A stretch of 64,000 nucleotides of DNA, taken from assembly GCA_905221615.1 (NCBI GenBank), contig CAJNDT010006129.1, positions 62,001 to 126,000 of the forward strand, given 5' to 3'. Below, one piece after another: positions 24,659 through 59,986 of the stretch. The DNA is from Symbiodinium sp. CCMP2592 (lineage: Eukaryota > Sar > Dinophyceae > Suessiales > Symbiodiniaceae). A model generated the notes under the pieces. The model did no database searches. It was not told the DNA's origin and saw nothing but the letters and a program-made list of their open reading frames with translations. The position numbers were made by a program, and so were the translations under genes. Numbering within the stretch: the first letter of the stretch is position 1; every line of letters begins with the position of its first letter.

Positions 24659-27376
24659 ATGGCGCAATTGCCAGTGCACTCACAAAACTTTGCATCTCTT
24701 CGTAAGAATTCGTTCAAGACAGCATGTAGAAGGACAGTCCGTAGTGACGGGCCCGTACCATACCGAGGGCAGGTTCTGACACCTACCCTGGTTGATCGTC
24801 TGGGGGTGCGCCCCCCACCCACTCGAAGAGAGCTTCAGTCACAGACTGCTGACTCCCCTGCATATGGCACAGCCTCCCGCAGGGCAGGAAGGTTGGAAAG
24901 ATCCATTCGAGTTCTTTCGTGGAACGCGGGCCACCTAGGCCAACAGCAATGGGGCGAACTCAAAACATGGCTAGCAGCTGAAGCCTCTCATCACTGCGAC
25001 ATCCTCATATTGCAGGAAACGCACTGGACTGAGACCAGTGAATTCAGCGTTTCTGGGTGGTACTGTATCTCCTCAGCCTCGGAGTCTACCAAACCCAACA
25101 CCCGGCCTAAACAAGCAGCGAAGCGAAACACTCGGCAAGAACCGCGAGCTCCATCCACGACTCGCGCTGATGGAGTCATGATCCTATTCTCTCCCAAGTT
25201 CGTCCCCAAGAGCTTACGCTGGAAGGAGTGGAGCCCGGGTAGAGTCTTAGAAGCTCGTGCGGACATTGCAGGTACTCGGCTGGTTGTTGTCGCGGTGTAC
25301 CAACACGCTTGGTCTTCTGCCAAGACCATCCAGTCCAATAAGGACGACCGTGCTAAGGTGCTATCTGTCATGTCCAAGGTGATCAAGCAGGTGCCTAAGA
25401 GGGACTCCCTTATTGTAGCAGGTGATTTTAACACTTCCTTGCGTCCGAGCTCTCCATTGGTGGGAACGCACGTGAAGCCACCTACTGAGGACCGCCCTGA
25501 CGAATCCAACTTGTTTAACCTGCTGCTCAGGTTGCGTTTGGTTGCCCTTAACACCTGGCAATGTGACCATATAGCTACCTTCTCACAAGGAGGAGTGGAG
25601 TCGCAAATTGACTTCATTCTAACCAAAGAATCTACGGCGGGAGGCAAAGCAAAAAGGTCAGCCCCCTGGGTGGACTGCCCGTTGGGAAGCTGGAAGAAAG
25701 GAGGGCATTACCCGCTTAAAGCTGACGTACCCCTCCAGCATCACTGGCTGCTCCCATCCCATAAGCCCAGCACGCGCCGTTACGATTCACTAGCTCTACA
25801 GGCCTCGGTCAGAGAGGAGGACGAGACGGCAAAGGCACTGCACAGCTGGATAGCTTCCAGAATTGACACCTGCCAGGACCCCAAGGCATGGAATGCGTTG
25901 CTTTTGGAAGGTGCAGAACGCTTTTTCCCAAAAATTCCCAAAAGAAGACCGATCCTGCTGGAATCGGAAACCCGTCGCATGTGGCGGGCCCGCACCCATG
26001 ACAGGGCTGCGAATACCACTCCCTCAGCACAGCTGATCGAGTCACCTAAAGCAATGGCACAGCCTCCTAATCAGAACACGCCACGTCCGCCGGAAACAGA
26101 AGCTGAGCTGGCACAAGTGGCACATCGCCAAGCTGTGAAACAAGCAAAGAAAGATCGAATTGCGAGTTTCATATCGGAGGTGGATGCGAGTCTAGCTGAA
26201 GGTGATCAACATATCTCCTTCCAGACCCTCAAAAAGCTGCAGCCTTGGCAGCCCGCGCGCAGAGCTCAGCTAAAGGACAACACAGGACATCTCCTAGGTC
26301 CAGCGCAGGAACTAGCAGCCCTCAGGGACTATGCCAATCAGGTATTTGCGGCCCACCCTCCGTTACGGACAATGCATGGAGCTTTCCCCGCTTTGGAGCC
26401 ACCCAAACTAGCAGCTCACATACATTCCATCAAGCCGAACAAAGCTGTTCCTGACGGAGCGGCACCAGCGGCTGTATGGAGGCTGTGTAGCGATCTCGTT
26501 GCACCGGTCCTCTCCGAACACGTAGCATCCAAGCAGGCCGAGGACAGTCTAGAATCCGACCTAGTAGACGCAGATCTCTGTTTAATACCCAAGCCGGGCA
26601 AGCCCTCTGACAGACCCGCAAACCTGAGACCCCTGGGCATCCTTAGACCTGACGCAAAGGGACTGGCGGGAGCAGCCAGAGAAGCGCTTCAACCACTGAC
26701 ACTCTCGTTCCTCAAGCACATGCCACAATTCGCTTATCTACCAGGTCGGGGGCTGTCAGACGCGCTAGAACGCGTGGTGCATCACTTGCGAGAGGCTCGA
26801 TCCCTGTTAGAACAGGCTCACCCCACGAGACATGCCTTGCAACAAGGCACACAGGCCCCAGCCTTAGTCGGCGGCCTCACCTTTGCTCTTGACCTCAGCC
26901 AAGCGTTTGACACTGTCTCTCGCCAAGAGATCATCGACCTTCTTCAGAGAGAAGGGGCCGATCAGGACACAGTCCACCTTGTTCAGGCTCTACATGACGG
27001 GTCTCGTTATGTTCTTCACGCGCAGGGAGATTCCACCTCTGTTGAAACCACAGCAGGCATTAAACAAGGATGTAAGCTTGCCCCCACACTCTTCTCATTC
27101 CTTACAGGTGACCTTTTCCGCTCTCTGGTCGACCTTTTCGGTGCTGAGCAGCGGCTTGGCGCTTCTGACTGGGGTCCGGGGTCATCAAGAAAGAATCAAA
27201 GGACACTTGCCCCTCCCTGGCGCTCTCTTTTTTATGACACTGACACTCGTGCCGGCGAGAAGACCTGGCACAGAAGGGCAGCATGTCAAATCGGTCAAAT
27301 CGTGATTGGAAGCTGGAGTGGAGGCATGCACTGTTCTTTTAGACGCAGCCGAAGGTCTGTGACGCACAGGCACTGA
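24659..27376 (+). CDS. Retroelement ORF2, 5' part: EEP endonuclease and reverse transcriptase to motif B
   Basis: It nicks target DNA and primes reverse transcription, as in APE-type LINEs. The endonuclease/exonuclease/phosphatase fold spans about residues 82-360 with its catalytic signatures visible: LSWNAG (N89), LQETHW (E120), VYQH (Y214), AGDFNTS (D256, N258), SQIDFIL (D318) and GGHYPL (His). A Pro/Gln-rich linker follows (about 440-490). RT blocks follow: IPKPGKPSDRPANLRPLGIL, motif A FALDLSQAFDTV (first catalytic Asp near 744) and motif B GIKQGCKLAPTLFS (near 797-812). The YADD motif is absent. The element-derived frame ends at 27151; the last 75 codons are read from inserted DNA. The matching downstream half starts at 57629. 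Start codon uncertain; the N-terminal 80 residues are low-complexity linker. Confidence 0.9.
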   Translation: MAQLPVHSQNFASLRKNSFKTACRRTVRSDGPVPYRGQVLTPTLVDRLGVRPPPTRRELQSQTADSPAYGTASRRAGRLERSIRVLSWNAGHLGQQQWGELKTWLAAEASHHCDILILQETHWTETSEFSVSGWYCISSASESTKPNTRPKQAAKRNTRQEPRAPSTTRADGVMILFSPKFVPKSLRWKEWSPGRVLEARADIAGTRLVVVAVYQHAWSSAKTIQSNKDDRAKVLSVMSKVIKQVPKRDSLIVAGDFNTSLRPSSPLVGTHVKPPTEDRPDESNLFNLLLRLRLVALNTWQCDHIATFSQGGVESQIDFILTKESTAGGKAKRSAPWVDCPLGSWKKGGHYPLKADVPLQHHWLLPSHKPSTRRYDSLALQASVREEDETAKALHSWIASRIDTCQDPKAWNALLLEGAERFFPKIPKRRPILLESETRRMWRARTHDRAANTTPSAQLIESPKAMAQPPNQNTPRPPETEAELAQVAHRQAVKQAKKDRIASFISEVDASLAEGDQHISFQTLKKLQPWQPARRAQLKDNTGHLLGPAQELAALRDYANQVFAAHPPLRTMHGAFPALEPPKLAAHIHSIKPNKAVPDGAAPAAVWRLCSDLVAPVLSEHVASKQAEDSLESDLVDADLCLIPKPGKPSDRPANLRPLGILRPDAKGLAGAAREALQPLTLSFLKHMPQFAYLPGRGLSDALERVVHHLREARSLLEQAHPTRHALQQGTQAPALVGGLTFALDLSQAFDTVSRQEIIDLLQREGADQDTVHLVQALHDGSRYVLHAQGDSTSVETTAGIKQGCKLAPTLFSFLTGDLFRSLVDLFGAEQRLGASDWGPGSSRKNQRTLAPPWRSLFYDTDTRAGEKTWHRRAACQIGQIVIGSWSGGMHCSFRRSRRSVTHRH
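24836..24884 (+). repeat. Paired ACA-loop mini-hairpins, pair 1
   Basis: The first hairpin is CAGTC-ACA-GACTG (24836-24848). The second is GGC-ACA-GCC (24866-24874) within an outer stem CCCTGC (24856-24861) / GCAGGG (24879-24884). They lie in the linker just before the endonuclease domain. Confidence 0.7.
26024..26064 (+). repeat. Paired ACA-loop mini-hairpins, pair 2
   Basis: TCAGC-ACA-GCTGA (26024-26036) and GGC-ACA-GCC (26056-26064), in the linker between endonuclease and RT. The second sits in the 14-mer ATGGCACAGCCTCC, also found at 24864, 59124 and 62938. Confidence 0.7.
27144..27151 (+). other. Left target-site duplication of the giant insertion
   Basis: CTGAGCAG, repeated exactly at 57621-57628. 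The preceding G is also shared, giving a 9-bp identity. It codes the same residues (A-E-Q) in the same frame of the RT at both ends. Confidence 0.8.
27152..27165 (+). repeat. Left terminal inverted repeat of the giant element
   Basis: CGGCTTGGCGCTTC. Similarity to the right end stops after this 14-mer. Confidence 0.75.
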
Positions 27377-28146: not shown

Positions 28147-29634
28147 TCACAACTGCACAGACGAGAAGCAACAGGTTGGCAAGACACTGGTTATCAGTCT
28201 GGTAATCCTGACCCGAAGCGAGCTTTTACACTGGAAATCTGGCCTCAATGTCTTTGCCACGTTGACCCCAAGATCCTTGAAGACCTGTCCGCAGGATTGC
28301 ATCTTGAGGCCATTGGTACCCGGCTTCTCGAAGGCGATCTTGAGGCTGGCGGCATTTACGGCTTCACTGACACTGCCTCCAAATTCCCACCGGAGAGCCG
28401 CACGATCCTTGGCAGAAGCCATGCCCTCAGCATTCAGCTGTACGAGCTTCATCTTGCCCAACCCACAGATTTCGAAGTCCTTGGGTATCTTGATGGCCGC
28501 CTCGCTCTCATTGCAAAGCCAAACTGACACTGAGACTCCCGAGGTGGACGCCGCGGTCGAGGCATTGGCTTCGCCGATGGCAGTGGCACAAATGCAAGAA
28601 TACCCTTTAGGGTGTGACTCTGACTTGCCCAGGATCTTGTACTTGGCCTCGAAGCTCGCCAGTGTCAGTTCCTTGTCTGTGATCTCTGCAGCCGGGGCCG
28701 TGCCACTGTCCTGATTCTGAGTGCCTTCAGTGTTGTTGGCACCGCTGACACCGCTGCCACCAGGCCTCTCGGCCTCACCCAAAGCCTTCGCCAACTGCTC
28801 GAATTGCTCGCGAGCTGTCGAGATCCTGGCGCTGCCACCAAGCTTCTCCGGGCAGCTTCTGAGCTGCAACAAGCCTGCCGCCGTGATCTCCGAGTGCTGC
28901 GAAAGCTGGGCTCTGACATTGCCGATGGCACGCTGCATTGACTCATCACTTGGCTGCTGGTTCTCCCATCCAGGAGGGATGGCCGGCAGGCGGGTGTGCT
29001 GCGGGATCTGCAACCTGTCTGACCGGAAGAATTCCAGCACTGTCTCCACTGCGTGAATCTTGTTGATCTGGACCCGGTGTTCCATGCTGTCGGAAACCAC
29101 GGCAGCCATGCGCGGGGCTCTCTTTCCAGCAGACTGCCTGCTGCAAAGAGCCCTTGTGAACCCGGAAGACCAGTCCGGGTTTCCGGCACACATGACGTAG
29201 AGCTTCACTCCCTTGATGGATTCCGGCAGTTGCTGCATGAATTCCTCCAGAACCTTGGCCACCGCCTCTGACCCAAGTTGCGCTCGCTGGCCCTCATTGA
29301 CTCTGTTCATTGGGAGTTGCTCTGTCTCCCTCTCTGACCGTGCTTTCTCTGCGGCTTGCAAACTGATCTTCGTGAACATCTCGGCCGCTGGCACTTTTTC
29401 CAAGTGCCCTTTCATGAAGACACTTGCCTCCATCCATGCCTGCGACTCCGATGCCTTGACGGGCACCAAAACCTCGAACTCTCTGGTGAAGCGACCCAGC
29501 AGCATCTGTGACATTGTCAAAGTGAAGCTCGAAGAAATGTGTTGGTCCGGCACCTGCTCGAGAGCAACAAATGAACATGACGTGAGAGCAAGAAGAGTGC
29601 ATGTTCGGCGGTTGCACCGGGCGGCGGAGGGCAT
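28147..29634 (-). CDS. Long exon of an unrecognised element gene
   Basis: A 495-codon frame with protein-like composition from about 29553 (after a GAGCAG|GTGCC acceptor) to about 28230 (possible GT donor after LRPDFQ). Visible features are a helical, acidic N-terminal half (EAVAKVLEEFMQQLPESIKG), GWENQQPSDESMQRAIGNVR, a Glu/Ala-rich helix (REQFEQLAKALGEAERPGG) and a C-terminal beta-rich part (CICATAIGEANASTAASTSG, then VSVSVWLCNESEAAIKIP). No signal peptide or catalytic motif is recognised. The exon contains several TGACACTG/CAGTGTCA motifs in coding sequence. It probably joins the exons at 29.6-33.5 kb in one gene. Function unknown. Confidence 0.6.
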   Translation of the reverse strand: MPSAARCNRRTCTLLALTSCSFVALEQVPDQHISSSFTLTMSQMLLGRFTREFEVLVPVKASESQAWMEASVFMKGHLEKVPAAEMFTKISLQAAEKARSERETEQLPMNRVNEGQRAQLGSEAVAKVLEEFMQQLPESIKGVKLYVMCAGNPDWSSGFTRALCSRQSAGKRAPRMAAVVSDSMEHRVQINKIHAVETVLEFFRSDRLQIPQHTRLPAIPPGWENQQPSDESMQRAIGNVRAQLSQHSEITAAGLLQLRSCPEKLGGSARISTAREQFEQLAKALGEAERPGGSGVSGANNTEGTQNQDSGTAPAAEITDKELTLASFEAKYKILGKSESHPKGYSCICATAIGEANASTAASTSGVSVSVWLCNESEAAIKIPKDFEICGLGKMKLVQLNAEGMASAKDRAALRWEFGGSVSEAVNAASLKIAFEKPGTNGLKMQSCGQVFKDLGVNVAKTLRPDFQCKSSLRVRITRLITSVLPTCCFSSVQL

Positions 29635-29644
29635 GCCGCCTAGC

Positions 29645-29860
29645 CTGAAAAGAATCCTCTATGGTCCGGCGGAGGAACCGCATGTCGCCGCTAAGCAACT
29701 GCCTCTTCTGCATGATGCTCAGAGACTTGGCCGACCTGGATCCGGTTGCCGGCAATGCTGTTGCCAAGGAGTCAGCCGCATTTTCGGCGATTTCTTCATT
29801 CTCATTCTCGGAAGATGAACCACTGGAACTTGACGCTGTCGCCACCGTCTTTGTAGTGCC
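29645..29860 (-). CDS. Exon of an unrecognised element gene (Ser/Glu-rich)
   Basis: The minus frame reads TVATASSSSGSSSENENEEI, then AENAADSLATALP and KRQLLSGDMRFLRRTIEDSF, ending at a possible CAG|GC donor near 29648. GC donors are accepted in dinoflagellates. The low-complexity acidic stretch suggests a disordered linker. It lies immediately upstream of the 28.2-29.55 kb exon. Confidence 0.5.
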
Positions 29861-29934
29861 ATCGGACCCTCGCTTGTTTTTGCGATGCCTAGCTCAACCG
29901 TCACACATCGACAGAGTATGATCATATGACTATT

Positions 29935-30234
29935 GGGCAGCATAAGGGAACGGCTACACTGACAGCAGTCTGGCCTCTTCCGACACAAGACCGGCTGGGC
30001 GACAAGCTTCACTGCATGCGGAAAAGCCATTGCCACCGTCAAGGCAGGCTCCGCAGTTTTCTTCTGCAAGCGTCCCTGTGATCGAAGATCTACGACAAAC
30101 AGCTCGGCCACGTTCTCTTCTGGCACGTCTCCAATGGCACTTTTCATGAAAGTGGCAGCCTCCGTCACGAAGGTGTTCCTGACACTGTCCAGCTTCTTGG
30201 GGTCGGCCTCGATTTGAAGGATCCTGCACTGCGG
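29935..30234 (-). CDS. Exon of an unrecognised element gene
   Basis: After a CCCGCAG|TGC acceptor the minus frame reads CRILQIEADPKKLDSVRNTF, VTEAATFMKSAIGDVPEENV and AELFVVDLRSQGRLQKKTAE, then AMAFPHAVKLVAQPVLCRKR and a Cys-rich end (PDCCQCS). The CRKRPDCCQC cluster could bind metal but is too short to assign. Confidence 0.5.
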
Positions 30235-30237
30235 GCT

Positions 30238-30678
30238 TCATCTGAAATCTTCACTCAGTGCATTCAAAAGAGTAACAGCCACTGACACATAATACGCATA
30301 ACAACTGGAAGTATCGTCAAGAGGACAGCCAAGGAGCTGGAGGTACTTCGAAAGGAAGGCCGAAGCTGCATTCCAGTCGTTGTCTTTGCACCTCTGCTCG
30401 TGCTTGACCTTCGCCGTAGACCATTTGGCGAGAGTGTCCATGTGGCCTTGTCGGAAGTGTTTGTACACGGCCATGTCGTTCTGCAGCTCGCTGCAGTAGG
30501 TGTCGCTTAAGATCTCAAGTTTCTTCTGCTCGAGGTCCGAGAGGTCCACCGGTGCCATGGAGGCCATGGTGATGGACGTCTCTTCCAGCAGGAGGCGCAC
30601 CGAGGGGATCATCTGCCGGGCATACTGGTCAAGCTCAGACATCCTGGGCTTCGAACATGAACAAGCAGGCCATTTCAT
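30238..30678 (-). CDS. Exon of an unrecognised element gene (helical)
   Basis: The minus frame runs from about 30642 (after GCCCAG|GATG) to a possible GT donor near 30300. It is strongly helical: ELDQYARQMIPSVRLLLEET, SDLEQKKLEILSDTYCSELQ and HMDTLAKWSTAKVKHEQRCK. No domain recognised. An upstream ATG (MSELDQ) could be an internal start. Confidence 0.5.
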   Translation of the reverse strand: MKWPACSCSKPRMSELDQYARQMIPSVRLLLEETSITMASMAPVDLSDLEQKKLEILSDTYCSELQNDMAVYKHFRQGHMDTLAKWSTAKVKHEQRCKDNDWNAASAFLSKYLQLLGCPLDDTSSCYAYYVSVAVTLLNALSEDFR

Positions 30679-30726
30679 GACTGTGCTGCGGCAGTGCTGC
30701 GATGAAACCTACCTGACATACCTGAA

Positions 30727-30950
30727 CTAAAATGCGGCCCAGATCAAGAAGTTCTCGGGCAGTCCACTCACAAAGGAATCGAAGAAGCCATCCATTCGGC
30801 TTTCATGGAGGACAGACTGCCACCATGCATCCCGTTCTGACACTGCCACCCGTGCGACAGTGAGCACGTTGTCGTAGATGTGAGCAGCCACAATGATTTT
30901 CTGCATGACCCTGGCCTGAATTCCAGCACGGATATGAGTCTTGTAGCTCT
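30727..30950 (-). CDS. Exon of an unrecognised element gene
   Basis: After a CGCCAG|AGC acceptor the minus frame reads SYKTHIRAGIQARVMQKIIV, AAHIYDNVLTVARVAVSERD, AWWQSVLHESRMDGFFDSF and ends ...LIWAAF with a stop. It may be the 3' end of an upstream gene or read past a donor. Confidence 0.5.
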
Positions 30951-30999
30951 GGCGACTATGACTAAAGGACGAAGGCCAAGAGTAAAATGCGACCAAATG

Positions 31000-31373
31000 G
31001 CCGCTTCATCAGGACTGACCCCGTTTCGATGATCGTCCTGCATCCATTCAATGAACGCAGTCTGTGCCCTCAGTGTGGTGGTCAGGATCTTGCGATGCTC
31101 GGCATGGCTGGTCTGCTTGCAGCACTTACCGACGTAGAGGGCCTCCCAAGTCACCAGGAGGGATACCGACATGCAGCACAGCCTGATGACAATCACGACA
31201 TGACACAAATTGCTTTTCCGTCTGGCCTGCATGTCGAAGATCTTGAGGCTCCACGTGCATTCGCTGCTCCCCCATCCAACCTTGCCGAGGTATTGCAGTA
31301 TCTTCTGCCGGTTCTCCGCCGTCATGGTGCCCAAGTTCTGCACCCTTGTATCAGCTTTGCCGGTGAACATCAT
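31000..31373 (-). CDS. Two exon-like blocks of an unrecognised element gene
   Basis: One minus-strand frame contains two protein-like blocks (about 31365-31235: DTRVQNLGTMTAENRQKILQ and YLGKVGWGSSECTWSLKIF; about 31120-31010: SHAEHRKILTTTLRAQTAFI and EWMQDDHRNG). They are separated by a hydrophobic stretch starting near a GGTAAG donor-like site, probably an intron. Confidence 0.4.
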
Positions 31374-31410
31374 GTCCTGTTTTCACAGCTGGAGTCTCAC
31401 TTTCTGCTTA

Positions 31411-32589: not shown

Positions 32590-32980
32590 CTCTGACTCTA
32601 GCGGCGAAAGGGCCTGCCGCCTAGCTTTACTTTACTTTACTTTACACTGACGCTGCTACTAATTACCTTGTAGTCTACCCTGTCTAATCTAACGGACTCT
32701 AGCGGCGAAAGGCCGTGCCGCCTAGCTTTACTTTACCTTGACACTGCTACTAACTACCTTGTAGTCTAGCCTGTCTCATCTAGCAGACTCCAGCGGCGAA
32801 AGATCCTGCCGCCTAGGTTTACTTTACACTGACACTGCTACTAACTACCTTGCAATCTGGCTGGCCTGTCTAATCTAGCGGACTCTAGCGGCGAAAGGTC
32901 CTGCCGCCTAGATTTACTTTACACTGACACTGCTGCTAACTACCTTGCAATCTGGCTGGCCTGTCTACTGGGCGGATTGT
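32590..32980. repeat. Four tandem units (~95 bp) each carrying a GCGGC/GCCGC hairpin
   Basis: Each unit has CTAGCGGCGAAAGG(N)4GCCGCCTAG, then TTTACTTTACACTGACACTG and CTACTAACTACCTTG. Hairpins lie at about 32597, 32697, 32788 and 32883. The first unit includes an expanded CTTTA run. Confidence 0.75.
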
Positions 32981-33632: not shown

Positions 33633-33813
33633 TTAGGGTTTAGGTTGACATGAAAGGGGCCAGCTCAGGTTCTCTATTGGCGGGTGAACAACCCGATGCT
33701 TTGGGAATTCTGGTCTCAATGATTGGAAGAGCTTGCAGAGAAAGAGCAAAAAGCTTGAATAAGCAACGTCGCTATGAGCCCTCGAGTGTCCTTGGAATCC
33801 TGTAAACCCCACA
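33633..33813. repeat. Internal copy of the element's right subterminal sequence
   Basis: It matches 57342-57596 in the same orientation (for example GGCCAGCTCAGGTTC, ATTGGCGGGTGAACAACC, AATGATTGGAAGAGCTTGCA, AATAAGCAACGTCGCTATGA). It stops about 25 bp short of where the right TSD would be, and has no TIR. It lacks the ~65-bp duplication seen in the 57-kb copy. Confidence 0.75.
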
Positions 33814-34166
33814 CTGGACGCTGATAGAGGTCTTTCACAAGTAGTTGTGAAGCACGGAGAACGCGGGGCACGGGTTGCTATTGTTTATGTTTGCAAAACT
33901 ACACGTTTAACCATGTGGCAAACACTGAACCCTAAAACCCTCAGCGGAACCGCAAAACCCGTAAGCCCCAAAACACACTTAGCCCTGTGAGCCCCGTCGC
34001 TTCGTCTTTGAGGCTGCGGCCCTCCCCCTGAACCGCCTCAACCCGAAGCCCCCAAAAAACCGACTTGCTCAAAAACCCGAAATCTCTAACAGACAGCCTT
34101 TTACCCAAAGAGGCGTGCAACCGTCGATCGGGCCCGCCTTTTTTTACCCACGCACCCCGAGCGGAC

Positions 34167-35513
34167 TCAGCATTTCAGCTTCTGTATGTGACATACAACG
34201 GCCTCGGTGAAAGCATCGAGCTTCATTCGCTTCCTTTTGAGAGCCACCACACGCGTCAGGAGCTCTCTGGCGCTCTTCTGTGCCATTCGATGAGAGGGCG
34301 AAGCCAGCAGAGCATCCACTGTTCGCTGCCACATGGTTCCCCACGGTCCAGATGTGTTCGCAGCACGCTTCTTCAGCAGGTCGTCGACGGCAGCGGGCGG
34401 AAAAAGGTTCACCACGTTCGTAGACAGGAGATCGAACATGACGCCTTGGCGGGACATCTGAATGACCATGTCTTATATTCTAATCACAAACAACAGAACT
34501 ATGACTATCTCTAAACACTAAGGGTCTTTTGAGAAAGTCTGACAGAGCTCAGCCAAGTCACAACCAAGGGCGAAGATGTCAGCCTCGGGCCCCGTATGGC
34601 AAAGATCCTGACCAGCCTCCAACAGCTCTGGAGCACGGTAGCTCGTACAAAAGGCCTCCGCGCCGACGGTGGCGACCACGCCCCTGACGACCTTCCCCGC
34701 CATGCCGAAGTCAGTGATCTTGATGCACCGGCTAGCCGGAAACGCCAACACGTTGTTCGGCTTGAGGTCCAGGTGCAGCATATCATGCGAGTGGATGTGC
34801 TGCAAACCCAAGCACAACTGATGCAGCCACTGCCAACGCTGCAGCAGCTGCGCAATCTGACCACTCTCATTCTCCGACCCCTGGAATCCAGTCTGCTTGC
34901 AGCCTTGAAGCACTTGGAGGAGGGTGCTATCGGCCTTCTCCATCAGCAGCGCCACGGTGTTCTCCGGGCCAAGGGCAAAACCATAAACAGTTACGATGTA
35001 AGGGCACTGGAAGCGGCTAATGATTTTTAGCTCTTTCTCCAACTCGGCAAGGCACTTGCAAACCTTGCCGGCCACGACAGCTGCAGAGAGCATGCTCTCA
35101 AAGGCCCACACAGTGCCGTATGTCCCGCTCCCCAAACGTGACACTCGACGCCATGTCTCGCCAGTGGCTTGCCTGAACACGAGCCCTTCAGAGGCATGCG
35201 AAGGACGCTCATCTCTGACATTGCACTCCTCGGCATCGGACCCGCAGGAGATTGCCAGCAATCTCTCTTTCTCCTGCTGGACATGATTTGCCCGGCACCG
35301 GGCATCGTCCCTGAAGCTCTGCTTTGTCTCCTCGGGCAAACGCGCCCACTGAGCTGACGGGTTTGTATTAGTCATGGTCTTCGCCCTCAATCGCCGCTCC
35401 GGTCGCAGGCTCGTGCCCTTGGCCTTCAGGTGTGCTTTGAACAAAGCGAAAGAATTTGGAGCTTTCTGCAGCCCCAGATCATCCAGTCTCGTATACGACA
35501 TTGCACAAAGCAA
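34167..35513 (-). CDS. Protein kinase with N-terminal HMG-box-like region, two exons
   Basis: Exon 1 (35513-34518) starts MLCAMSYTRLDDLG. Residues about 18-75 resemble an HMG box (PNSFALFKAHLK...QWARLPEETKQSFRDDA). The kinase domain starts near residue 122: glycine loop GSGTYGTV, VAGKVCK (Lys), catalytic loop HLDLKPNN, ITDFGMAGK (DFG), activation-segment end SYRAPELL and the DIFALGCDLAEL helix. The catalytic loop has HLD where HRD is usual, so it is a non-RD kinase, but Asp, Lys and Asn are kept. Exon 2 (34469-34167) supplies the C-lobe end with a typical subdomain XI (LLASPSHRMAQKSARELL). The intron is about 50 bp, ending AATATAAG. Substrate unknown. It lies in the giant element's minus-strand gene run, so it is cargo or a captured host gene. 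Confidence 0.75.
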
Positions 35514-35519
35514 GATCTA

Positions 35520-50085: not shown

Positions 50086-50423
50086 GTTTCGGGGGTCGGG
50101 ATTTAGGGTAGGGGATGTCCCCCGTATATTTTCATTAACTTGATGCCTTTGGCCTAAGCAGGCTGTTTGAAGGTCAGGGATCGTTGTATTGATGCCTGAC
50201 TTCCCGAGCTTGGTGCTGGTGCTTAAGCAGCGATGTCACGTAACATTCTCTGCCTTTAGGGCTTAAGTCTTAAACCCCAAACCCTACACCCTAGACTCCA
50301 GCCTTTTTTTCACCCCAACCCCTAAAACCTAAACCACCAACCTAAACCTCTCTTTCATATGTCATATGTACACACTGGCGCACACGTCGTGGGAACTAGC
50401 GTTTTCGGTAGGGTTCGCGAGGG

Positions 50424-52081
50424 TCATGCCGCCTAGTACCTACTCCTACTCCGCGGCGAAGGGCCATGCCGCCTAGTACCTACTCCTACTCCGCGGCGAA
50501 GGGCCATGCCGCCTAGTGTTACAAATAATTTGACTAGGGTTTGGAAGTACCAGACTAAGCATCTTAAACCCCAAAGCCTAAAATTCCTAAGACCTATACC
50601 CTAATCCCTAAAACCACCAAAACCCTCCCTAAACCCAGTACCAGTACAGACTTGAGAACTCTAGGGTTTAGTTAGGATGTAGGGTTATGAAGCCCGAAGC
50701 CCCAAGGCCCAAACACGACACAAAATGGCTCAACCCAGTACCCGATCCTAAAATCCTGAAACCTACACCCTAAACGCCTCAAAATCCTCCTTAAACTTAG
50801 GCCCTAAACCCAGTGCTCAGTACCCGACACCCGATCCTAAAATCTTGACAACTATACCCTAAAACCCCTCAAAGCCCTCCCTATCCCCAAACCTAAACCA
50901 AAACCCTAGAATGCCCAAAGCCAGAGAGCCCTGCCTAAGTCCAGAAAGTCCCTAGTAAAACATTAAACACCCAAAGCCTAAAAAGACCTAAACCCCAAAC
51001 CCCAAACCAACCCTAATTCTTACTTGCTTAGACAGTCAACGTACGTAAGGACCTGAAGAACCTAGACCTAGTGCCCAAAATCCTGTGCTTAAAACCTATA
51101 CCCTATAAACCACCCAAAACTAAAACCAACCCAAAACCCTCATCAAATTATCTAATTCAAACCCCTAAACCCAAAACTCAACACTCTCAGGCTGCTGCGT
51201 TGACGAAGACGATCTGTGGCACCTGAGCGGCAGGTGGGGGGGGGGTGGGGGGGGGTGAGGTTTCGGGTCCGGGTTTTTCGGGGAGGGGAACTACCATAAC
51301 CCCAATTAGGGTCCCTTTTAGGGTACATATAAGTCTACTTACTAACTGCTTACTAAGTCCCCCGACCCCCCTAGGCTTAGGGCTTGCCGCCCTACTCCTA
51401 CCCTACTCGCGGCGAAGGGCTTGCCGCCTAGTTACGTGAATCTACTCGCGGCGAAGGGCTTGCCGCCTAGTTACGCGAATCTACTCGCGGCGAAGGGTCC
51501 TGCCGCCTAGACTAGATTTACACTGACACTGACACGCTAGTCACTACTCTAGACTAGACTACACTGGACTAGACTAATCATGACTAATCTAGACTAGACT
51601 GGCGAGATATATCCCAAAATCTAGAGCTCCTCAAACCCTTAAAGCCGGGCTCTGCGGCTTTAAAAGCCCAAAGCCTAAAACGCCAAAACCCACAACCGTG
51701 ATCCAAACTCATAACCCTTAGGGTTAAACTTAAAATCTTTAAACCTATACCCTAATGCGCTAAGCCCCAAACCCGACCATAATTTAAACCCGAAGCCCTA
51801 GGCTCTAAGCTGTAAACCCCAACTCCCCAAATCCTGAAACCTATACCCTAATTATCTAAGCCTACCAATTCAAACTCATAACCCTAACCCTAAATCCTAG
51901 AACAGAACCAATACCCTAAAGCCCCAGCCCCAAACCCCAATCCATGATTTCAACCCAAAGCCCTAAGTTTAAAACCCCAACTCCCCAAATCCCGAAACCT
52001 ATAATTACCCTATTACCCTAATTAGCCAAAACCCCCACATCCTGAAACCTATGCCCCCAAACCCCAACGGCCGAGCCCCCA
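50424..52081. repeat. Segmental duplication, copy 1
   Basis: It matches 55577-57246 in the same orientation, almost identically over the first ~750 bp (from GCCGCCTAGTGTTACAAAT to the GCGGCAGGTGGGGGG tract) and more loosely afterwards (CTAGACTAGACT, GGCCGAGCCCC). It contains GCGGC/GCCGC hairpins at about 50451, 50492, 51404, 51435 and 51484 and many CCTAAA-type units. No gene. Confidence 0.85.
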
Positions 52082-52199
52082 AAAGAGTCGACATCCTGCT
52101 CCTGCCCCTCGCTCTCCTCCCGCCCCCGCCCCCGCCGTCGTTATAGCTGAGGAGTAGCTGTATCAGCACAGGGAAGCTTCGTGTGCTCAAGTGCTGAAG

Positions 52200-52960
52200 A
52201 ATGCTCAATGCTCAAGACCAGGCAACGCAGCTCAGCACAAGGACGCAACATGTGAGAAGAAGAGAGGGGCGGATGGCACCTCTCGGACGCTGCCGCTGAT
52301 GACCACGAAAACGAAGTCGCCTGCCAGTGTCAGCAGCTTCAATGATGAACCTACCAAACTGACTCACACTGGCACTGATTTCCCAAGGCCCCGTCCCGGG
52401 AGACAGCAGCCAAGCCTCTGAGGTGACCTCGGGTCGGAAAGAGATGCATGCAATTGTCAAAAGCGATGGCTCCGGCTCTTGCACGGCACGGTCGGACTGC
52501 TAAGCCGCTTTTCACTCGCAAAAGAAAGCCACTCCCTCGGGTCCCCCCCCCCCCGCCCCCTAACAGATTCCCGCTGACACCCGGCCAAAGCCTAGGATAT
52601 TAGACTACGGAATTAAACCTAAGTTTTAAGCGGGAATCCGTTTGGGGGACGGGGGGAAGGGATCGTCGTGCGTCCTGTGACCGTCGTGTGACACGTGTGC
52701 GCCGAGAGCTGCTGGCTACGTGCCATGTGCTGCTATGTGTGCTGCTGCGTGCTGCTGTGTGTGTGTGTGTTGCTGTACGCTGCTGTGTGCTGCTGTGTGT
52801 GTTGTGTGTGTTGTGTGTGTGTGTTGGGTTTGTTGTGTGTGCTGTGTCTGCTGTGGTCCCTGGCATAGCAGCACTCAGCAGCTCAGCACTACAGGATTTT
52901 AGGGCTCCGGGAAGAACAACAGCCAGGCCTATCATGCTAAGTCCTCATTGGCTAGGCTAC
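52200..52960. other. No confident gene; GT-rich low-complexity tract
   Basis: 52715-52860 is dominated by TGCTGTGTGTG-type repeats. A segment at 52375-52425 repeats part of 48470-48520 (TTTCCCAAGGCCCCGTC, GGAGACAGCAGCCAAGCC). Cys/Val-rich and Thr/His-rich ORFs here are repeat translations. Confidence 0.5.
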
Positions 52961-52990
52961 TGACTGAACCAAGCCTTGACTACTCTTCTA

Positions 52991-54193
52991 CTACTTCTTC
53001 CCTTTGCCCTTACCCTGGCCCTTGGCAATCTGCTGGAGCTCGGCCTTCAAGTTGTTGACTTCCAGAGTCTTCTTCTCTGAGAACTCCGTCTGCTCCTTCA
53101 GCTGGTTCGTCAGGGACTTCTCTCTGTTCTCCAGCCTTTGAAGCTTTAATGCAGCGAAACCCCAATCAAAAGTAAAGGTCCTAAGCTCCTAGCCAAGTCC
53201 CAAACCAAATAGTTAGTCAGTCATGAGTACACCACAAGTTAACCTTTAGGATTTATATTTTGGGTTTATTTATTTTTTCATACAACCCAAAAACAAATAC
53301 CTGCCGAGGCAAGGAACGACTCGATCTTGCGCCTCAGATCCTGACGAATCTTATACTCGTCATCGCGCTCGCCCCTGACCTTCTGCAGCTCCGTTTGTGA
53401 CTCCTGAGGGGGAGCTCAGAAGCGGAGGGTACCACTAGAAGAAGAAGTAGTAGTCTTAGTAGTCGTCGTCGAGTCGTCGTAGTAGTAATATCAATAATAG
53501 AAACCCGACCCAACCCCAAACCCCGAAACCCCGAAGACCCCGCTGGTCCTTGAAGAGGCGCTGAGACGTCTGCAGCCGCCCTTCCACGGAGTGGATGTCG
53601 GAGCGGTGCTTCGACGCCATGTCGGAGATCTGCTTGCCGAGCCGCTCGATCTCCGCCCCAGCCTTTGCCTTGGCATCCAGCAACTCATCGGCAGCAGCCT
53701 GGGGTTGAGGGCCGTTTGAGGTTGAGAGTTTTTATCCCTCCCTGGCAAGGAAAGTTTAAGGTTTAGGGTGGCCCACCTTCTGGACGTCAAGGATCTCGGT
53801 AGTGTGGGCGGTCCGCTGCTCGTCAAGCTGCCGCTGGAGTCTGGAAGCGGAGTCTCTCAGGTCATCTCTCTCCGACTCCGCGACGGTCAGGTCGATCTGT
53901 GGGTGGATAGAAGCCGAAAAGTTGGAAACCCAACAGCCTCAATCCTGAAGAGTAATGTATAGGGAAGCCCAGCACTATTTGGCCTTAATCCGGTTTCCAA
54001 CTTTATGGGGTTTACTCTATGGAGGTGGCCCGCATGATCCCCTACTACTGCTACTGGTTATTAATGCATGGGATGGGGCTTACCTGGGGCTTTGGCAACA
54101 CCCACCCTGGCTTGCGTCAGGTCTCCTTCAAGGCGCTGCACTTCGCCTTCCAGTCTGCTGATCATCTGCCCTCTCAGGGTGCTTGTCGTCGAC
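52991..54193 (-). CDS. Coiled-coil protein, five C-terminal exons (5' end not found)
   Basis: Minus-strand exons with good splice sites: about 54193-54084 (LRGQMISRLEGEVQRLEGDL; donor CAG|GTAAGC), 53896-53777 (DLTVAESERDDLRDSASRLQ; acceptor CCCACAG, donor AAG|GTGGGC), 53698-~53543 (DELLDAKAKAGAEIERLGKQ; acceptor CCCCAG), 53403-53301 (ESQTELQKVRGERDDEYKIR; acceptor CTCAG, donor CAG|GTATTT) and ~53144-52991 (LQRLENREKSLTNQLKEQTE), ending in a basic GKGKGKK tail and tandem stops. All exons are heptad-rich, so the product is a long parallel coiled coil, probably cytoskeletal or scaffold-like; the exact family cannot be told. The intron at 53897-54083 contains a family G MITE-like element. Upstream exons may be missing, so a truncated captured gene is possible. 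Confidence 0.7.
53910..54017. mobile_element. MITE-like element, family G, copy 3 (intronic)
   Basis: AGCCGAAAAGTTGGAAACCC opposes GTTTCCAACTTTATGGGGTT. The interior (AGAGTAATGTATAGGGAAGC, CCAGCACTATTTGGCC) is the reverse complement of the 20114-20245 copy. It is wholly within an intron of the coiled-coil gene. Confidence 0.7.
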
Positions 54194-54199
54194 CTGCAG

Positions 54200-55560
54200 C
54201 TCTAAATCCAAACCTAGACCCAAGAGTCACCTAGGAAGAAAAAGGGTGCCCTTTTGGGTTTTAAGGGGGTTATAAGGGAACCTAAACCCTTAAAAGGGAA
54301 TAAGGGCCTACTCTGGGTCCTAGAAACCCCCCCCCATTTTAAATTATTCCCTGGGGCCGGTCCTGTTATCGCCCTTTCCGCCGCCAGTGCCGCCAGCGCC
54401 CTTCCCGCCGCCAGCGCCCTTCCCGCCGCCAGCTGGCGGGTAGGGACCATACCAGGCCGGGCCCCCCCAGCAAGGGCCCCCCCAGCCAGGGCCCCACCAG
54501 CCATCCATGGCTGGGCGATAGCCGCAAAGCCCAACCTCCCTAGTCCTAGTCTTTGCTGCTGCACAAGTGCTTTTAATGCTTGTGTGCCCGCTGCCCTGAA
54601 GCCTTGACTGGGCCTGGACCTGGCGGATATGGAGCCCTAAGCCCTAAGCCCTGGCCCTAAGCCTGCATGTCACATGTCTGCTGACTGTTCTGTCGCATGC
54701 AGCATGCACATGCATGAGCTGGGCTGCACTGCACGTCAGCAACAACTTTCAATGACATGCCGACACTCCGAAGAAGGGGCAGTGCACCGGCACCGAGCTG
54801 CCGACTCTGATGACGATGACCACGACCAACGAGAGTCTGTTGAAGAGGCAGAGGTACCGGCCTCGGCAGCACTCAGCATCAGAGCAACCAAAGTGAATGT
54901 CAGGAGGCCTCCGCTCGATGCCGTAGTTCTCCACGACGAAGTGACCTGAAGCTGAAGTTCGAGAGAGAAGCTGCAGAGTGACTGCAACCCATGGGCAAGC
55001 GCATGTAACACGACACGGCTACCGATGGATATTTAGGGCCAATGAGGCCAACAGCTTTCAGTGACATGATGCCGACATATGCCGACACTCCCATCGGCAC
55101 CGAGCTGCCGACTCTGATGTCGATGGCCATGACTCTGACGCGAGTCTGCTGAAGAGGTACCCGCCTCGGCGACTTGGCGATGGGCTCCGGCATAGGGCCG
55201 GATCTTAAATAAGGGTTGGCTGAAGGATGCTCCGGGCCCGGGATCATGAACTCACTTCACAGATGCTCTCTGACACTGACACTGTCAGGCTCCTGGCACC
55301 CAGGAGCCAGCGGGCACGGGCCTGGCCCAGAGCTGTACTCGTGGTCGTGGTCATGCAATGATGCAGACGGTGACCACCGCATCCAGGCCACAACAATCCC
55401 CAATCGTTTAACCTCAACCCCAAATCCCTGCTGTGGCCACCGCCTGCACCGAGGCCAGACCACAGGTCCACACCTCAACCGGCACAATGACACTGGGACT
55501 GGGGCGGTCGTGGCATTTCGGGTTTACAGGTTTTGGGCTTAATGGGTCATTGGTCGGGTG
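54200..55560. other. No confident gene; short duplication
   Basis: 54780-54870 and 55090-55180 share GGCACCGAGCTGCCGACTCT, CGAGTCTGCTGAAGAGG-type and CCGCCTCGGC segments. 54360-54500 is a GCCGCCAG/GGGCCCCCCAGC low-complexity stretch. No convincing reading frame. Confidence 0.45.
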
Positions 55561-55576
55561 GGGTCGCCTACTAACT

Positions 55577-57246
55577 ACCTACCTACTCCTACTCCGCAGC
55601 GAAGGGTCATGCCGCCTAGTACCTACTCCCACTCCGCGGCGAAGGGCCATGCCGCCTAGTACCTACTCCTACTCCGCGGCGAAGGGCCATGCCGCCTAGT
55701 GTTACAAATTTGACTAGGGTTTGGAAGTACCAGACTAAGCATCTTAAACCCCAAAGCCTAAAACTCCTAAGACCTATACCCTAATCCCTAAAACCACCAA
55801 AACCCTCCCTAAACCCAGTACCAGCACAGACTTGAGAACTCTAGGGTTTAGTTAGGATGTAGGGTTATGAAGCCCGAAGCCCCAAGGCCCAAACACGACA
55901 CAAAATGGCTCAACCCAGTACCCGATCCTAAAATCCTGAAACCTACACCCTAAACGCCTCAAAATCCTCCTTAAACTTAGGCCCTAAACCCAGTACTCAG
56001 CACCCGACACCCGATCCTAAAATCTTGACAACTATACCCTAAAACCCCTCAAAGCCCTCCCTATCCCCAAACCTAAACCAAAACCCTAGAATGCCCAAAG
56101 CCAGAGAGCCCTGCCTGAGTCCAGAAATTCCCTAGTAAAGCACTAAACACCCAAAGCCTAAAAAGACCTAAACCCCAAACCCCAAACCAACCCTAATTCT
56201 TACTTGCTTAGACAGTCGACGTACGTAAGGACCTGAAGAACCTAGACCAGTGCCCAAAATCCGGTGCTTAAAACCTATACCCGGTTACCCTATAAACCAC
56301 CCAAAACTAAAACCAACCCAAAACCCTCATCAAATTATCTAATTCAAACCCCTAAACCCAAAACTCAACACTCTCAGGCTGCTGCGTTGGCGTTGACGAA
56401 GACGATCTGTGGCACCTGAGCGGCAGGTGGGGGGGGGGTGGGGGGGGTGAGGTTTCGGGTCCGGGTTTTTCGGGGAGGGGAACTAGGCTTAACTCCTACG
56501 GGGCGCGGGCGAAGGGCTTGCCGCCCTACTCCTACCCTACTCGCGGCGAAGGGCTTGCCGCCTAGTTACGTGAATCTACTCGCGGCGAAGGGCTTGCCGC
56601 CTAGTAGCCTAGTTACCTGTACTTGCGGCGAAGGGTCATGCCGCCTAGACTAGAATTATAATTACACTGACACGCTAGTCACTACTCTAGACTAGACTAG
56701 ACCAGACTAATCATGACTAATCTAGACTAGACTGACGAGATATATCCGAAAATCTAGAATCTAGAGCTCCTCAAACCCCTAAACCCCAAAGCCTAAAAAT
56801 AGCAAAACGACAAAACCCACAACCGTCATCCAAACTCATAACCCTAAACCCTAAGCTAAATCCTAACACACAAAGTCCTAGGGTCCTAGAACCAATACCC
56901 TAATGCGCTAAGCCCCAAACCCGAACATAATTTCAACCCGAAGCCCTAGGCTCTAAGCTCTAAGCCCCAACCCCCCAAATCCTGAAACCTATACCCTTAT
57001 CTATCCTGGTCCTACTACTAATTCAAACTCATAAACCTAAATCCTGAATCCTAGAAGCAATACCCTAAAGCCCCAGTCCTAAACCCCAATCCATAATTTC
57101 AACCCAAAGCCCTAAGCCGTAAACCCCAACTCCCCAAATCCTGAAACCTATAAGGACCTATAAATACCCTAATTATTACCCTAATTACTCACAAAACCCC
57201 CACATCTTGAAACCTATGCCCCCAAACCCCAACGGCCGAGCCCCAA
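55577..57246. repeat. Segmental duplication, copy 2
   Basis: The partner of 50424-52081, about 5.15 kb downstream. It has one extra hairpin unit at its start (three instead of two) and another near 56626. Small indels distinguish the copies, for example ATAATTTGAC versus ATTTGAC at the first junction. Confidence 0.85.
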
Positions 57247-57341
57247 AAACCCTAAACCCGAAATATGAGGACCTGGCTTGTCTGCGATCACCAGCACGGA
57301 CGGCGACGGCACATGAAGGCTTATTGTTTCGGGGTTAAGGC

Positions 57342-57596
57342 TTTAGGGTTTAGGTTGTCTGAAAGTGGCCAGCTCAGGTTCCCTATTGGCGGGTGAACAA
57401 CCTAATGCTTTGGCTTTGGGACTTCAATGATTGGAAGAGCTTGCAGCGGGTGAACAACCTGATGCTTTGGCTTTGGGACTTCTGGTCTCAATGATTGGAA
57501 GAGCTTGCAGCGAAAGAGCAAAAAGCTTCAAAGCTTCAATAAGCAACGTCGCTATGAGCCCTCAAGTGTCCTTTGATTATTTTGAACCCCACATTG
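57342..57596. repeat. Right subterminal region of the giant element, with ~65-bp internal duplication
   Basis: The segment GGGTGAACAACCT(A/G)ATGC...AATGATTGGAAGAGCTTGCAG occurs twice in tandem here and once in the internal copy at 33633-33813. The N-terminal 63 codons of the following ORF are read from this DNA and are not retroelement sequence. Confidence 0.7.
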
Positions 57597-59986
57597 GATA
57601 TGCAAGGAAGTGCCAAGCCGCTGAGCAGGTCTTGAAGTTCCTGACTGGCTATGCCGATGATCTCACGCTTCATCGGACTATCCGCTCTGACAAGGACCTC
57701 AGGGCCATTCATGCTCTCATCGCAGCGCTACTTGAAGAGGTCCGCAAACACCGCCTTCGCGTCAACATTAGCAAGTGCGTCATCTTAGTGAAGTTAGCGG
57801 GAAGAGAATCCCAAAACGTGATGAACAAACATGGCTGCTGGATCACCAACTCCAAGGGCGAGCAGGTTCGCGGATGGCGCATAGGGCCCAACAAATCGTT
57901 CCCCGCCTTCCAGTGGGTCTCCTGTAGCAAGTACCTGGGGGTTATGATCTCCTACAACCACTTCGAGCTGCAGTCCTTACATTACCGCATTGGGGAAGCC
58001 AAGCAAAAGCTGCATCAAGTCCGCCAGTTTGTCTACAATCGCCGGCACGCGAGCACCATGTCGAGACTTAAGGTTTGGCAAAGCACAGTCCTGAGCACAC
58101 TGACTACAGGCCTCTCAGACGTCGGACTTAGCGAGGAGTCGGCCAAGCAGCTACGCAGTTGGCATGCTTACAAGGTGCGATCAGTGCTGAACTTGCCAGC
58201 ACACACCAGCCGCATCACCACTAAGGACCTCTTCCAGCTTTATAGCATTCAGGACCCAGTTCAAGCGATGCAGGTCAAGCTCAGGAAGCGACTCCGCAAA
58301 CTTGAGCGGCGTGCAGCCAGAAGCCCAGATATCACAACCGATCCTTCTGTTCTGCAAGTCATCCGGGACAAGCTGCATTTCATGTCACAGCTCCCTGAAA
58401 CAGTTGAGCACCCTGTAGCCCTACATGCATGCACACTCTGCGATGCCTCCTTCGAGACAGCAAACGGGTTACACTTACACAAGTCGAGAGTGCATCCAGC
58501 CAGCATTGACCGATTTGTGCCATCAAGCTTCGATCGGCAACTCCACGCGGTGGATGGGATGCCGCAATGTGCCGCTTGCATGCGCAAATTTCATCAATGG
58601 AAAGGTCTACGTGACCACCTGTTGTCAGGAGCATGTCCGGAACCCCAGAAGCTTCGAACTCTGAACGTGACTGACAAACACTCAAGTCACCCTGAGGTAA
58701 GGACCCTGTCCCAGCTGCGACAGGACATTGCCCAACTCCCACAACATCGAATAGCGGTGATCTCAAAGACACCGGAGGCCCGGGTCCTGATCCATAGGTG
58801 CCTCACGTGTGACTTCTGGACTTTCGATCACACTAAAGTCAAGTCACACTTCCGTCAGGCGCATCCTAAGGACTGGTCAAGGCTGCACAAGCGCGCAGTC
58901 TCTATATGTCAGGGTTTCTCGCCTCACCTTGCCAAGGGACACCCGTGTTCATTCTGCGGCTACAAGGTCTATGATCGTCGACTGCACCCGGAACAATGCC
59001 CCGTACTTTATCAGGTGAGTACACAGTGGCTGCGAGGGCAACCGGAGGCAGAGGAAGCCGTTACTGCTCCCCCCTCCAAGCCCCAAGAACGGTCACTGAC
59101 CCACTTCTTTAAGCCACGGTCGAATGGCACAGCCTCCAATCAGTCGAGCACAGCTCGTCACACCCCGGCAGACAAGCAGGCGTCTGATCCGCAGTCCTCA
59201 GGACAAGCGGAAATTAGACCCGAAGGAGTGCACAAACGCGCTCTGACTAACACGTCCAACTCGTGTTACGCTAATGCCCTATTCCAGGCTCTGCATCAGA
59301 TCTCGAGCTTTGGGTATGACCTGGGTGCTTTCCAGTCCGTCCTATCCCATCTAGGCGACGAGCGAGCCCCCAGATTACTGAACCTGTTAGGCTTGTTTGA
59401 ATTTCGCCATGCCATCTCAGGCTGGCGACTTGACGGCAGACAGCATGATGTCTCAGAGCTGCTTCTGCATATGCAGTCCAAGCCTTTCGGCTCCCTTCAA
59501 CAAACCCAGTGGCAGGGTCGAACAGATGGCGAGGTTGAGGATTCAGATGTGGGAGTCAGCCCACTCCTTCTTCCCCTCCCGCCTGGCCCTCTGTCACTCT
59601 CGACTTGCTTACGGCTGTGGGAGTCCCAGATCTTCTCCCGCGCGCTAGTTTGGTCACCTGAACTCCTAGCAATTGTGATTTGCCGCTGGCAGGATGGAGT
59701 CAAGAACACTCAGCCGTGTCTTTGGTCAGGCCGCACCACGGTGCCTGTATGGACCTCAAGTGATGCTCGCACTCAGCGTCACTATCAGGTCATAGCAGGA
59801 GTTGCCCACTTTGGGGACTCCCTTTCTTCTGGGCACTACCGCGCTTTTTGGCCAGAGGACCCAGCGGATACCGCCTCTCAGGTTTGGATCTCCGACGACT
59901 ACAGGCTTCCGGAAAAGGCCTCAGCGGCCTTGAACCTGTCCATCTCCAGGAATGTCTACATGCTTTTCTTGCAACGAATTCGCTAG
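57431..59986 (+). CDS. Retroelement ORF2, 3' part: RT motif C and thumb, zinc fingers, USP protease domain
   Basis: Retroelement sequence starts at residue 64-66 (57620-57628). RT motif C is GYADDLTLH (Y74-D77), followed by the RT tail and thumb (RKHRLRVNISKCVIL). Four Cys/His fingers follow: CTLCDASFETANGLHLHKSR..H (from 334), CAACMRKFHQWKGLRDH (from 380), CLTCDFWTFDHTKVKSHF (from 457) and CSFCGYKVYDRRLHPEQC (about 506). After a linker, residues about 604-851 form a compact USP (peptidase C19) domain: Cys box NTSNSCYANALFQAL (C613), QQD-like box RQHDVSELLLHM, His box GDSLSSGHYRAFW and the terminal WISDDYRL, with the C-terminal strand VYMLFLQR. Cys and His are intact, so deubiquitinase activity is plausible; it might stabilise the retroelement proteins or complex. 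The visible ATG lies in inserted DNA, so it is not the native start. Confidence 0.9.
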   Translation: MEELAAGEQPDALALGLLVSMIGRACSERAKSFKASISNVAMSPQVSFDYFEPHIGYARKCQAAEQVLKFLTGYADDLTLHRTIRSDKDLRAIHALIAALLEEVRKHRLRVNISKCVILVKLAGRESQNVMNKHGCWITNSKGEQVRGWRIGPNKSFPAFQWVSCSKYLGVMISYNHFELQSLHYRIGEAKQKLHQVRQFVYNRRHASTMSRLKVWQSTVLSTLTTGLSDVGLSEESAKQLRSWHAYKVRSVLNLPAHTSRITTKDLFQLYSIQDPVQAMQVKLRKRLRKLERRAARSPDITTDPSVLQVIRDKLHFMSQLPETVEHPVALHACTLCDASFETANGLHLHKSRVHPASIDRFVPSSFDRQLHAVDGMPQCAACMRKFHQWKGLRDHLLSGACPEPQKLRTLNVTDKHSSHPEVRTLSQLRQDIAQLPQHRIAVISKTPEARVLIHRCLTCDFWTFDHTKVKSHFRQAHPKDWSRLHKRAVSICQGFSPHLAKGHPCSFCGYKVYDRRLHPEQCPVLYQVSTQWLRGQPEAEEAVTAPPSKPQERSLTHFFKPRSNGTASNQSSTARHTPADKQASDPQSSGQAEIRPEGVHKRALTNTSNSCYANALFQALHQISSFGYDLGAFQSVLSHLGDERAPRLLNLLGLFEFRHAISGWRLDGRQHDVSELLLHMQSKPFGSLQQTQWQGRTDGEVEDSDVGVSPLLLPLPPGPLSLSTCLRLWESQIFSRALVWSPELLAIVICRWQDGVKNTQPCLWSGRTTVPVWTSSDARTQRHYQVIAGVAHFGDSLSSGHYRAFWPEDPADTASQVWISDDYRLPEKASAALNLSISRNVYMLFLQRIR
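57607..57620 (-). repeat. Right terminal inverted repeat of the giant element
   Basis: GAAGTGCCAAGCCG. Its reverse complement differs from the left end only at position 10 (A for G). Confidence 0.75.
57621..57628 (+). other. Right target-site duplication of the giant insertion
   Basis: CTGAGCAG, identical to 27144-27151 and in the same codon phase. Confidence 0.8.
59126..59157 (+). repeat. Paired ACA-loop mini-hairpins, pair 3
   Basis: GGC-ACA-GCC (59126-59134) and CGAGC-ACA-GCTCG (59145-59157), in the linker between the zinc fingers and the USP domain. Confidence 0.7.

Follow-up and report, generated by a model that had tools for sequence, protein, structure and literature searches.

Giant DNA transposons are known in fungi and in green, brown, and red algae, and KDZ elements reach 30.3 kb in Ectocarpus and, in an actively moving element of Chlamydomonas cited in the same source, 31.7 kb (PMC12477816, in its accessible excerpts). 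Here, we describe an element of 30,469 bp in a dinoflagellate, at positions 27152-57620 of a 64,000-nucleotide stretch of Symbiodinium sp. CCMP2592 (hereafter the window; C5267:62001-126000), where it sits inside the open reading frame (ORF) of a long interspersed nuclear element (LINE), a retrotransposon. A first-pass annotation, made from the letters of the window, had proposed a giant cargo-carrying transposon at this place and was correct in substance. The element has three genes on one strand and copies elsewhere in the genome. Its size alone is not new because the KDZ elements of Ectocarpus and Chlamydomonas are of this length, DNA transposons of ~30 kb and more being already known. What is new, as far as the literature searched shows, is the unrecognised transposase and the gene set. 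No report of a giant DNA transposon in a dinoflagellate was present among the open-licence titles and abstract beginnings found, some of which were the best matches of longer lists. We know of no earlier transposon whose genes include a kinase carrying a DNA-binding-like part.

Several described systems share some of these traits. Giant KDZ elements of green and brown algae are alike in their length of ~30 kb, their accessory genes, and their nested insertions, and Zisupton also has the 8-bp target-site duplications (TSDs) that are usual for hAT (excerpts of PMC12477816 and PMC12730594); our element differs in having no Pfam match to KDZ and in its other conserved motifs and accessory genes. 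The hAT superfamily, some fungal members of which have an extra gene, is likewise similar in its 8-bp TSDs (excerpts of PMC12730594) and short terminal inverted repeats (TIRs), whereas the element described here is 30.5 kb long, has no hAT or hATC Pfam match, and carries two more genes, one for a kinase with an HMG-like part and the other shared with a second family. Fungal Kyakuja elements, with 7-bp TSDs and no TIRs (same excerpts), are unlike it. Fungal Starships are also giant cargo-carrying eukaryotic transposons, but in the source excerpts they are classified by their tyrosine recombinase and reach ~700 kb, whereas the window transposon has short TIRs, 8-bp TSDs, and DDE-like motifs. Teratorn (piggyBac-herpesvirus) and Polintons are further giant DNA elements with terminal inverted repeats, Teratorn spanning 41-182 kb (PMC6431247, excerpts). 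No viral gene was recognised in the window transposon. Teratorn, moreover, targets TTAA. The present case brings together TIRs, duplications that differ between sites, near-identical copies, and an empty target, and it would represent a DDE-like element moving 30 kb intact.

Insertion site and copies in the host genome

The element is flanked by two copies of the 8-bp repeat CTGAGCAG, at 27144-27151 and 57621-57628, and it starts and ends with 14-bp TIRs, CGGCTTGGCGCTTC at 27152-27165 (plus strand) and CGGCTTGGCACTTC at 57607-57620 (as read on the minus strand), which agree at 13 of 14 positions and lose their likeness beyond. Both the repeat and the inverted termini had been read in this way in the first-pass annotation. 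Among the 80,805 direct 8-mer pairs of the window that lie at least 36 bases apart, four have adjoining 14-mers inverted at 13 or more of 14 positions, and the other three are palindrome-based repeats (two TTAATTAA and one AGGATCCT, the latter pair being a palindrome and so in effect one longer inverted repeat). No TSD-like 8-mer pair with inverted 14-mers occurred in any of 60 windows simulated with a Markov-1 model. A scan with CGGCTTGGCRCTTC gave 30 matches at up to three mismatches, where 11.9 were expected, and its two exact sites are the two ends of the transposon.

The interrupted ORF can be put together again. Its left part (24656-27151, plus strand, including one TSD) encodes an APE-like endonuclease and the first part of the reverse transcriptase (RT), and its right part (57629-59986, plus strand) encodes the YADD motif, the rest of the RT, and a USP/UCH-like C-terminus, with the Pfam RVT_1 profile split between them (profile positions 1-142 on the left, 146-204 on the right). 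Taking out 27152-57628, which joins the flanks at one repeat, restores a single open frame, 1,617 codons long between its stops, in which YADD begins ~40 residues past GIKQGC; the frame-matching interruption proposed from the codon phase is therefore borne out. We searched the joined 303-bp target against the host assembly (1.098 Gb, 5,383 contigs), and all 40 relatives scored, out of 291 candidates, run unbroken from base 1 to base 303 at 96-99% identity. The LINE that was hit has a high copy number, and none of its scored relatives contains the 30 kb, so an empty site is present and the 30 kb are not a fixed part of this RT family.

The ends of the element are found again, with other flanks and other duplications, at other places of the genome. 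The first 300 bp match three places, all at 100%: the window and two further contigs, C5351 and C269. The last 320 bp give 15 matches, which are full-length and identical in the window and on C1587, cover positions 146-320 at 85% on C5351, and are partial in the 12 remaining rows, among them another piece of the C5351 end and, in three copies, an internal remnant. C269 matches the transposon up to 49285, where it breaks off at a 100-N gap inside a tandem array, and C1587 begins at window position 40609 and continues to the right end. The left flank of C269 ends in TCCCAGCA and the right flank of C1587 begins with the same 8 bases (8 of 8); outside their 8.7-kb overlap, no match of at least 1 kb was found between the 90 kb fetched of C269 and C1587. 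The simplest reading of what the two contigs contain is one insertion divided between them. On C5351, the flanks are CATTGTGG at one end and CATTGTAG at the other, and seven of the eight bases agree. The TSD is thus 8 bp long and of a different sequence at each site, and the TIRs are common to copies at unrelated sites.

The copies are also very similar. Relative to the window copy, C269 has 10 substitutions (over 27152-49285) and C1587 six (over 40609-57620), both being 99.9% identical, and C5351 has 87, of which 32 fall in 57000-57620. Outside its last 0.6 kb, C5351 is ~99.8% identical by substitutions, and its long BLAST pieces are 98.7-99.6% identical with gaps counted. Nine ORFs have no indel between the window and the copies, where these cover them. 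Three sites, one of which is pieced together from two contigs, show insertion of the whole unit with 8-bp duplications. Because there are near-identical copies with other duplications and uninterrupted copies of the target, 27152-57620 is very probably a single, recently mobile DNA transposon with 14-bp TIRs, and the earlier proposal of one ~30.5-kb mobile unit has held up, further copies with the same termini being present.

The C5351 copy measures 76,176 bp from end to end because two further insertions, of 30,771 and 15,150 bp, lie inside it. The larger one, between window positions 43203 and 43205, has ends CCCAAAGGGTC, a 3-bp duplication (ACA), and an internal 100-N gap, and is read from these features as another giant, nested, DNA-transposon-like unit. 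The smaller one, at window position 49329, contains a frame of 2,410 amino acids that was read as gag-pol-like outside any family scan and is probably a retrotransposon.

Three genes and a second family

The transposase-like gene (37958-42169, minus strand) is predicted to have several exons, in ORFs 40676-42169, 40187-40657, 39557-39910, 38836-39672, and 37958-38761. Homology points to an intron of 117 bp (40628-40744, GA...AG), without which the frame reads GGAHADFGVEPVRLFHSVTRR, matches the proteins P0001 and P0002, and joins the first two ORFs. Such a GA-AG intron, like the size of the genome, is in keeping with a dinoflagellate. The sequence and profile searches of the protein collection each scored 7,999 candidates, those with the most words in common. 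Among them, P0001 is the sole relative of ORF 40676-42169 at E<=0.001 (66% identical), and the profile search adds P0002, which is 68% identical to P0001 across 30% of its length. P0001 has 22 matches in the host genome among 30 scored candidates, corresponding to copies of the element, fragments, and one diverged family; the transposase-like ORFs that it covers are open in the copies. No relative was found in viral contigs, a collection that may leave out relatives of the window's genome.

Three motifs may hold the catalytic residues: ADGFTP (41162-41179) for a first Asp, LAGDGLL (40937-40957) for a second Asp, and SSSAACEGVGG (38063-38095; NSSAACEGVGS in the second family) for a Glu in the C-terminal motif, all on the minus strand. 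The window, P0001, and the second family all have the Asp of (A/C)DGFTP, the second family only if an inferred splice is accepted. The same sequences, P0001 where it is covered, share the Asp in GL.GDG.LAGP and the motifs LD.MHA.DK.G.HAD and SE.TR...YESRR. The Glu in SSAACEGVG...STGHL.RA..LR is conserved in the window and the second family, P0001 having no part in this comparison.

The second, diverged family is found at C5351:551-553 kb and C5329:861-862 kb. Over 3,263 bp, the two copies sampled from it differ very little (99.94% identity), and for this reason it probably also moved recently. We compared 12.4 kb of it with all 253 window ORFs of at least 60 amino acids, and then with eight chosen ORFs. 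Homologues were identified for the five ORFs of the transposase-like gene (an antisense shadow of the last, 37959-38210, was also matched) and for 30241-30708 and 28150-29658, two ORFs of a third gene (28150-31382, minus strand); the eight-ORF comparison adds a weak match (E=0.001) for its remaining ORF, 30771-31382. ORF 28150-29658 has seven matches among 28 scored in the host: three in the copies of the element, one each in the C5351 and C5329 members of the second family, a similar one on C194, and a stop-containing fragment on C5112. Since order and strand agree between the two families, at 30-65% identity by segment, the homologies make the transposase-like and third genes features of both. 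The idea of a transposase-like gene plus cargo thus stands for the gene set, but this cargo was not loaded at random: the second family keeps the first and third genes in order, and the best relative of the kinase lies on a contig as long as that of the transposase's relative. With two families to compare, the nature of the transposase becomes testable.

The kinase gene lies between the other two. Its main exon (34521-35516, minus strand) matches Pfam Pkinase (E=1.4e-29) and has what we take to be the glycine loop, HLDLKPNN, DFG, and APE-like motifs; its probable last exon (34170-34472, minus strand) is an open frame that no homologue reaches. The N-terminal part is HMG-box-like: HMG_box_2 scores 15.3 bits (E=0.034) on the window ORF and 21.4 bits on P0003, both below the cut-off of 22.4. 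P0003, at 53% identity, is the sole kinase relative in the protein collection at E<=1e-25. The ENA contigs of P0003 and P0001 are both 140,233 bp long, and we infer that they are one and the same. Among 109 matches scored from 377 candidates in the host, P0003 matches at 54% only the three element copies; next by score comes C4891 at 30%, and 42% is reached in a few short rows. On closer inspection, the C4891 kinase is 26% identical to P0003 and 25% to the kinase of the window, and it was set aside. The 12.4 kb taken from the second family yielded no match to the kinase. We read the kinase, from these comparisons, as a gene of one transposon lineage rather than a fresh capture from the host. 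Kinase-like frames of ~258 amino acids recur at many places in the host (at 34% identity in over a dozen of the 109 scored rows) and perhaps belong to other repeated elements carrying kinases. Codon-usage scoring trained on the LINE gave no clear separation of genes.

Competing explanations and mechanism

A number of observations argue against a single recent transposon moved by its own hAT-like enzyme. First, the right-terminal 0.6 kb (window 57028-57620) of the C5351 copy is only ~85% similar to the window copy, which makes this copy a mosaic, perhaps through gene conversion or a template switch in gap repair, and the duplication of this copy contains one mismatch. Second, the overlap of C269 and C1587 has two base differences and one indel, so they are perhaps not one copy. 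Third, all three changes in ORF 28150-29658 of C269 are non-synonymous. Fourth, the empty-site check covers the insertion site of the window only. Fifth, the transposase ORFs, P0001, P0002, and the ORFs of the second family find nothing in Pfam beyond weak hits to unrelated families; against solved structures (PDB), the transposase profile has no match and the single-sequence search one, at E=0.27; and an AlphaFold model from four sequences has a mean predicted local distance difference test score of 35, too low to show the fold or a helical insertion domain.

The alternative that fares best is that the 30 kb grew by nesting, i.e., that a smaller transposon took later insertions and much of the interval is hitch-hiking. 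We consider this a serious possibility, even if we lean the other way. The interval contains 128-bp tandem arrays (48694-50085, C269 breaking off in the first), a direct repeat of ~1.7 kb (50417-52084 and 55599-57249, 97% and then 83% identical), and a remnant of the right-end region (33640-33818, plus strand) that resembles, at 83-88% identity, the right-terminal regions of both the window copy and the C5351 copy, and the two inserts of the C5351 copy show that such growth occurs. However, no inner insert with 8-bp repeats and 14-bp inverted ends was found in a scan confined to inserts of this kind, and the whole interval is common to the copies, so that it now moves as one, whatever its origin.

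Rather unlikely, in our view, is an enzyme of KDZ (Zisupton), P, or some other superfamily with 8-bp TSDs, or of an undescribed one, the transposon itself being real in all these cases. Zisupton makes 8-bp TSDs and giant algal KDZ elements of 30-32 kb are known (excerpts of PMC12730594 and PMC12477816), and the transposase is without any Pfam match. Yet, KDZ is not among the families matched either, nor did a hAT or hATC profile match the transposase in these Pfam searches. Pfam-A contains models for hAT/hATC and for KDZ. The 8-bp TSD fits hAT, but it is also a trait of Zisupton and hence not specific, and P elements make 8-bp TSDs too. The order and spacing of D, D, and late E resemble those of hAT transposases, and the late-E motif SSAACEGVG...STGHL.RA..LR resembles hATC and not the KDZ motifs. 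Because these three residues are conserved and the duplication has 8 bp, we consider the enzyme probably hAT-like, if distant; we claim no membership of hAT because the profile searches did not detect it. The hAT/P/Zisupton type of transposition suggested at first is therefore plausible from the TSD, whereas no Pfam family matches the transposase, and hAT-like is our reading of its motifs.

The ends could also be served by a transposase encoded elsewhere, the element being a large non-autonomous passenger that merely carries its inner genes. Transposition by its own gene is a prediction, and the giant elements of Ectocarpus often have a transposase gene predicted to be dead (PMC12477816, excerpts), but the copies keep open the transposase-like ORFs covered by P0001 and the second family has retained the gene, and we regard such a passenger as improbable. 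An assembly artefact or a segmental duplication without transposition is very improbable: the stretches compared of C269 and C5351 contain 100-N gaps and the C269/C1587 copy is divided over two contigs, but the matches end at the inverted repeats, the flanks differ, each copy has its own 8-bp duplication, and the target is empty at least 40 times. We reject both on the copy boundaries, the distinct duplications, and the empty targets. The Pfam scan covered 100 of the 253 ORFs, and nine ORFs (including the kinase) were scanned apart. The 100 ORFs gave 18 families with one member each, at E from 0.0098 to 0.096 (HTH_23, homeodomain-like, at 0.083), and no tyrosine recombinase. An integrated virus or Polinton-like element, the least probable of all, would be within range in size and inverted ends, but it is rejected because neither set of ORFs has a meaningful match to a capsid, polymerase B, packaging ATPase, or integrase (matches to viral families are at chance level) and the inverted repeats are just 14 bp long.

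For a transposon moved by its own enzyme, one may propose the following process. 1) A multi-exon, far-diverged, hAT-like DDE enzyme of the transposon, with the D of ADGFTP, the D of GDG, and the late E of SSAACEG as candidate catalytic residues, as suggested by motif conservation and TSD length, would most likely act on the inverted ends; 2) its staggered cut would leave 8-bp duplications; 3) the whole unit would be excised and reinserted, copies being gained through gap repair; and 4) the third gene and the kinase gene with its HMG-box-like part would move along as parts of the transposon. More speculatively, bending of the terminal DNA by the HMG-like part may help to bring together ends that lie 30 kb from one another, and host repair, the cell cycle, or the transposase may be modulated by the kinase; any role of the third protein would be equally speculative. 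We tentatively propose, with somewhat less than even confidence, an undescribed superfamily, or a deep hAT-like branch, of giant DNA transposons with relatives in more than one genome. Its standing gene set would pair a large DDE transposase with a conserved partner protein and, in one lineage, add a kinase with an HMG-box-like part controlling transposition or the host response; blocks of 30 kb would be moved intact, and one copy would carry a further 46 kb of insertions.

Repeats and neighbouring features

Within the transposon, there are many hairpin-like repeats of the type GCGGCGAAGGG...TGCCGCC, at 32594-32925, 43651-44917, 50486-51524, and 55575-56662. In the right part of the interrupted LINE (57629-59986, plus strand), a UCH match (Pfam, E=6e-6) at the C-terminus indicates a ubiquitin-protease-like domain, of which NTSNSCYAN and SSGHYRAFW are presumably the boxes. 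To our knowledge, such a domain is unusual for a LINE. Just past this LINE, ORF 61598-62902 (plus strand) has a weak kinase/ABC1-like Pfam match. The palindrome-based repeats belong to a small inverted-repeat element around TTAATTAA at 2495-2967 of the window and to an inverted-repeat pair with AGGATCCT, 9 kb apart, at 11156 and 20324.

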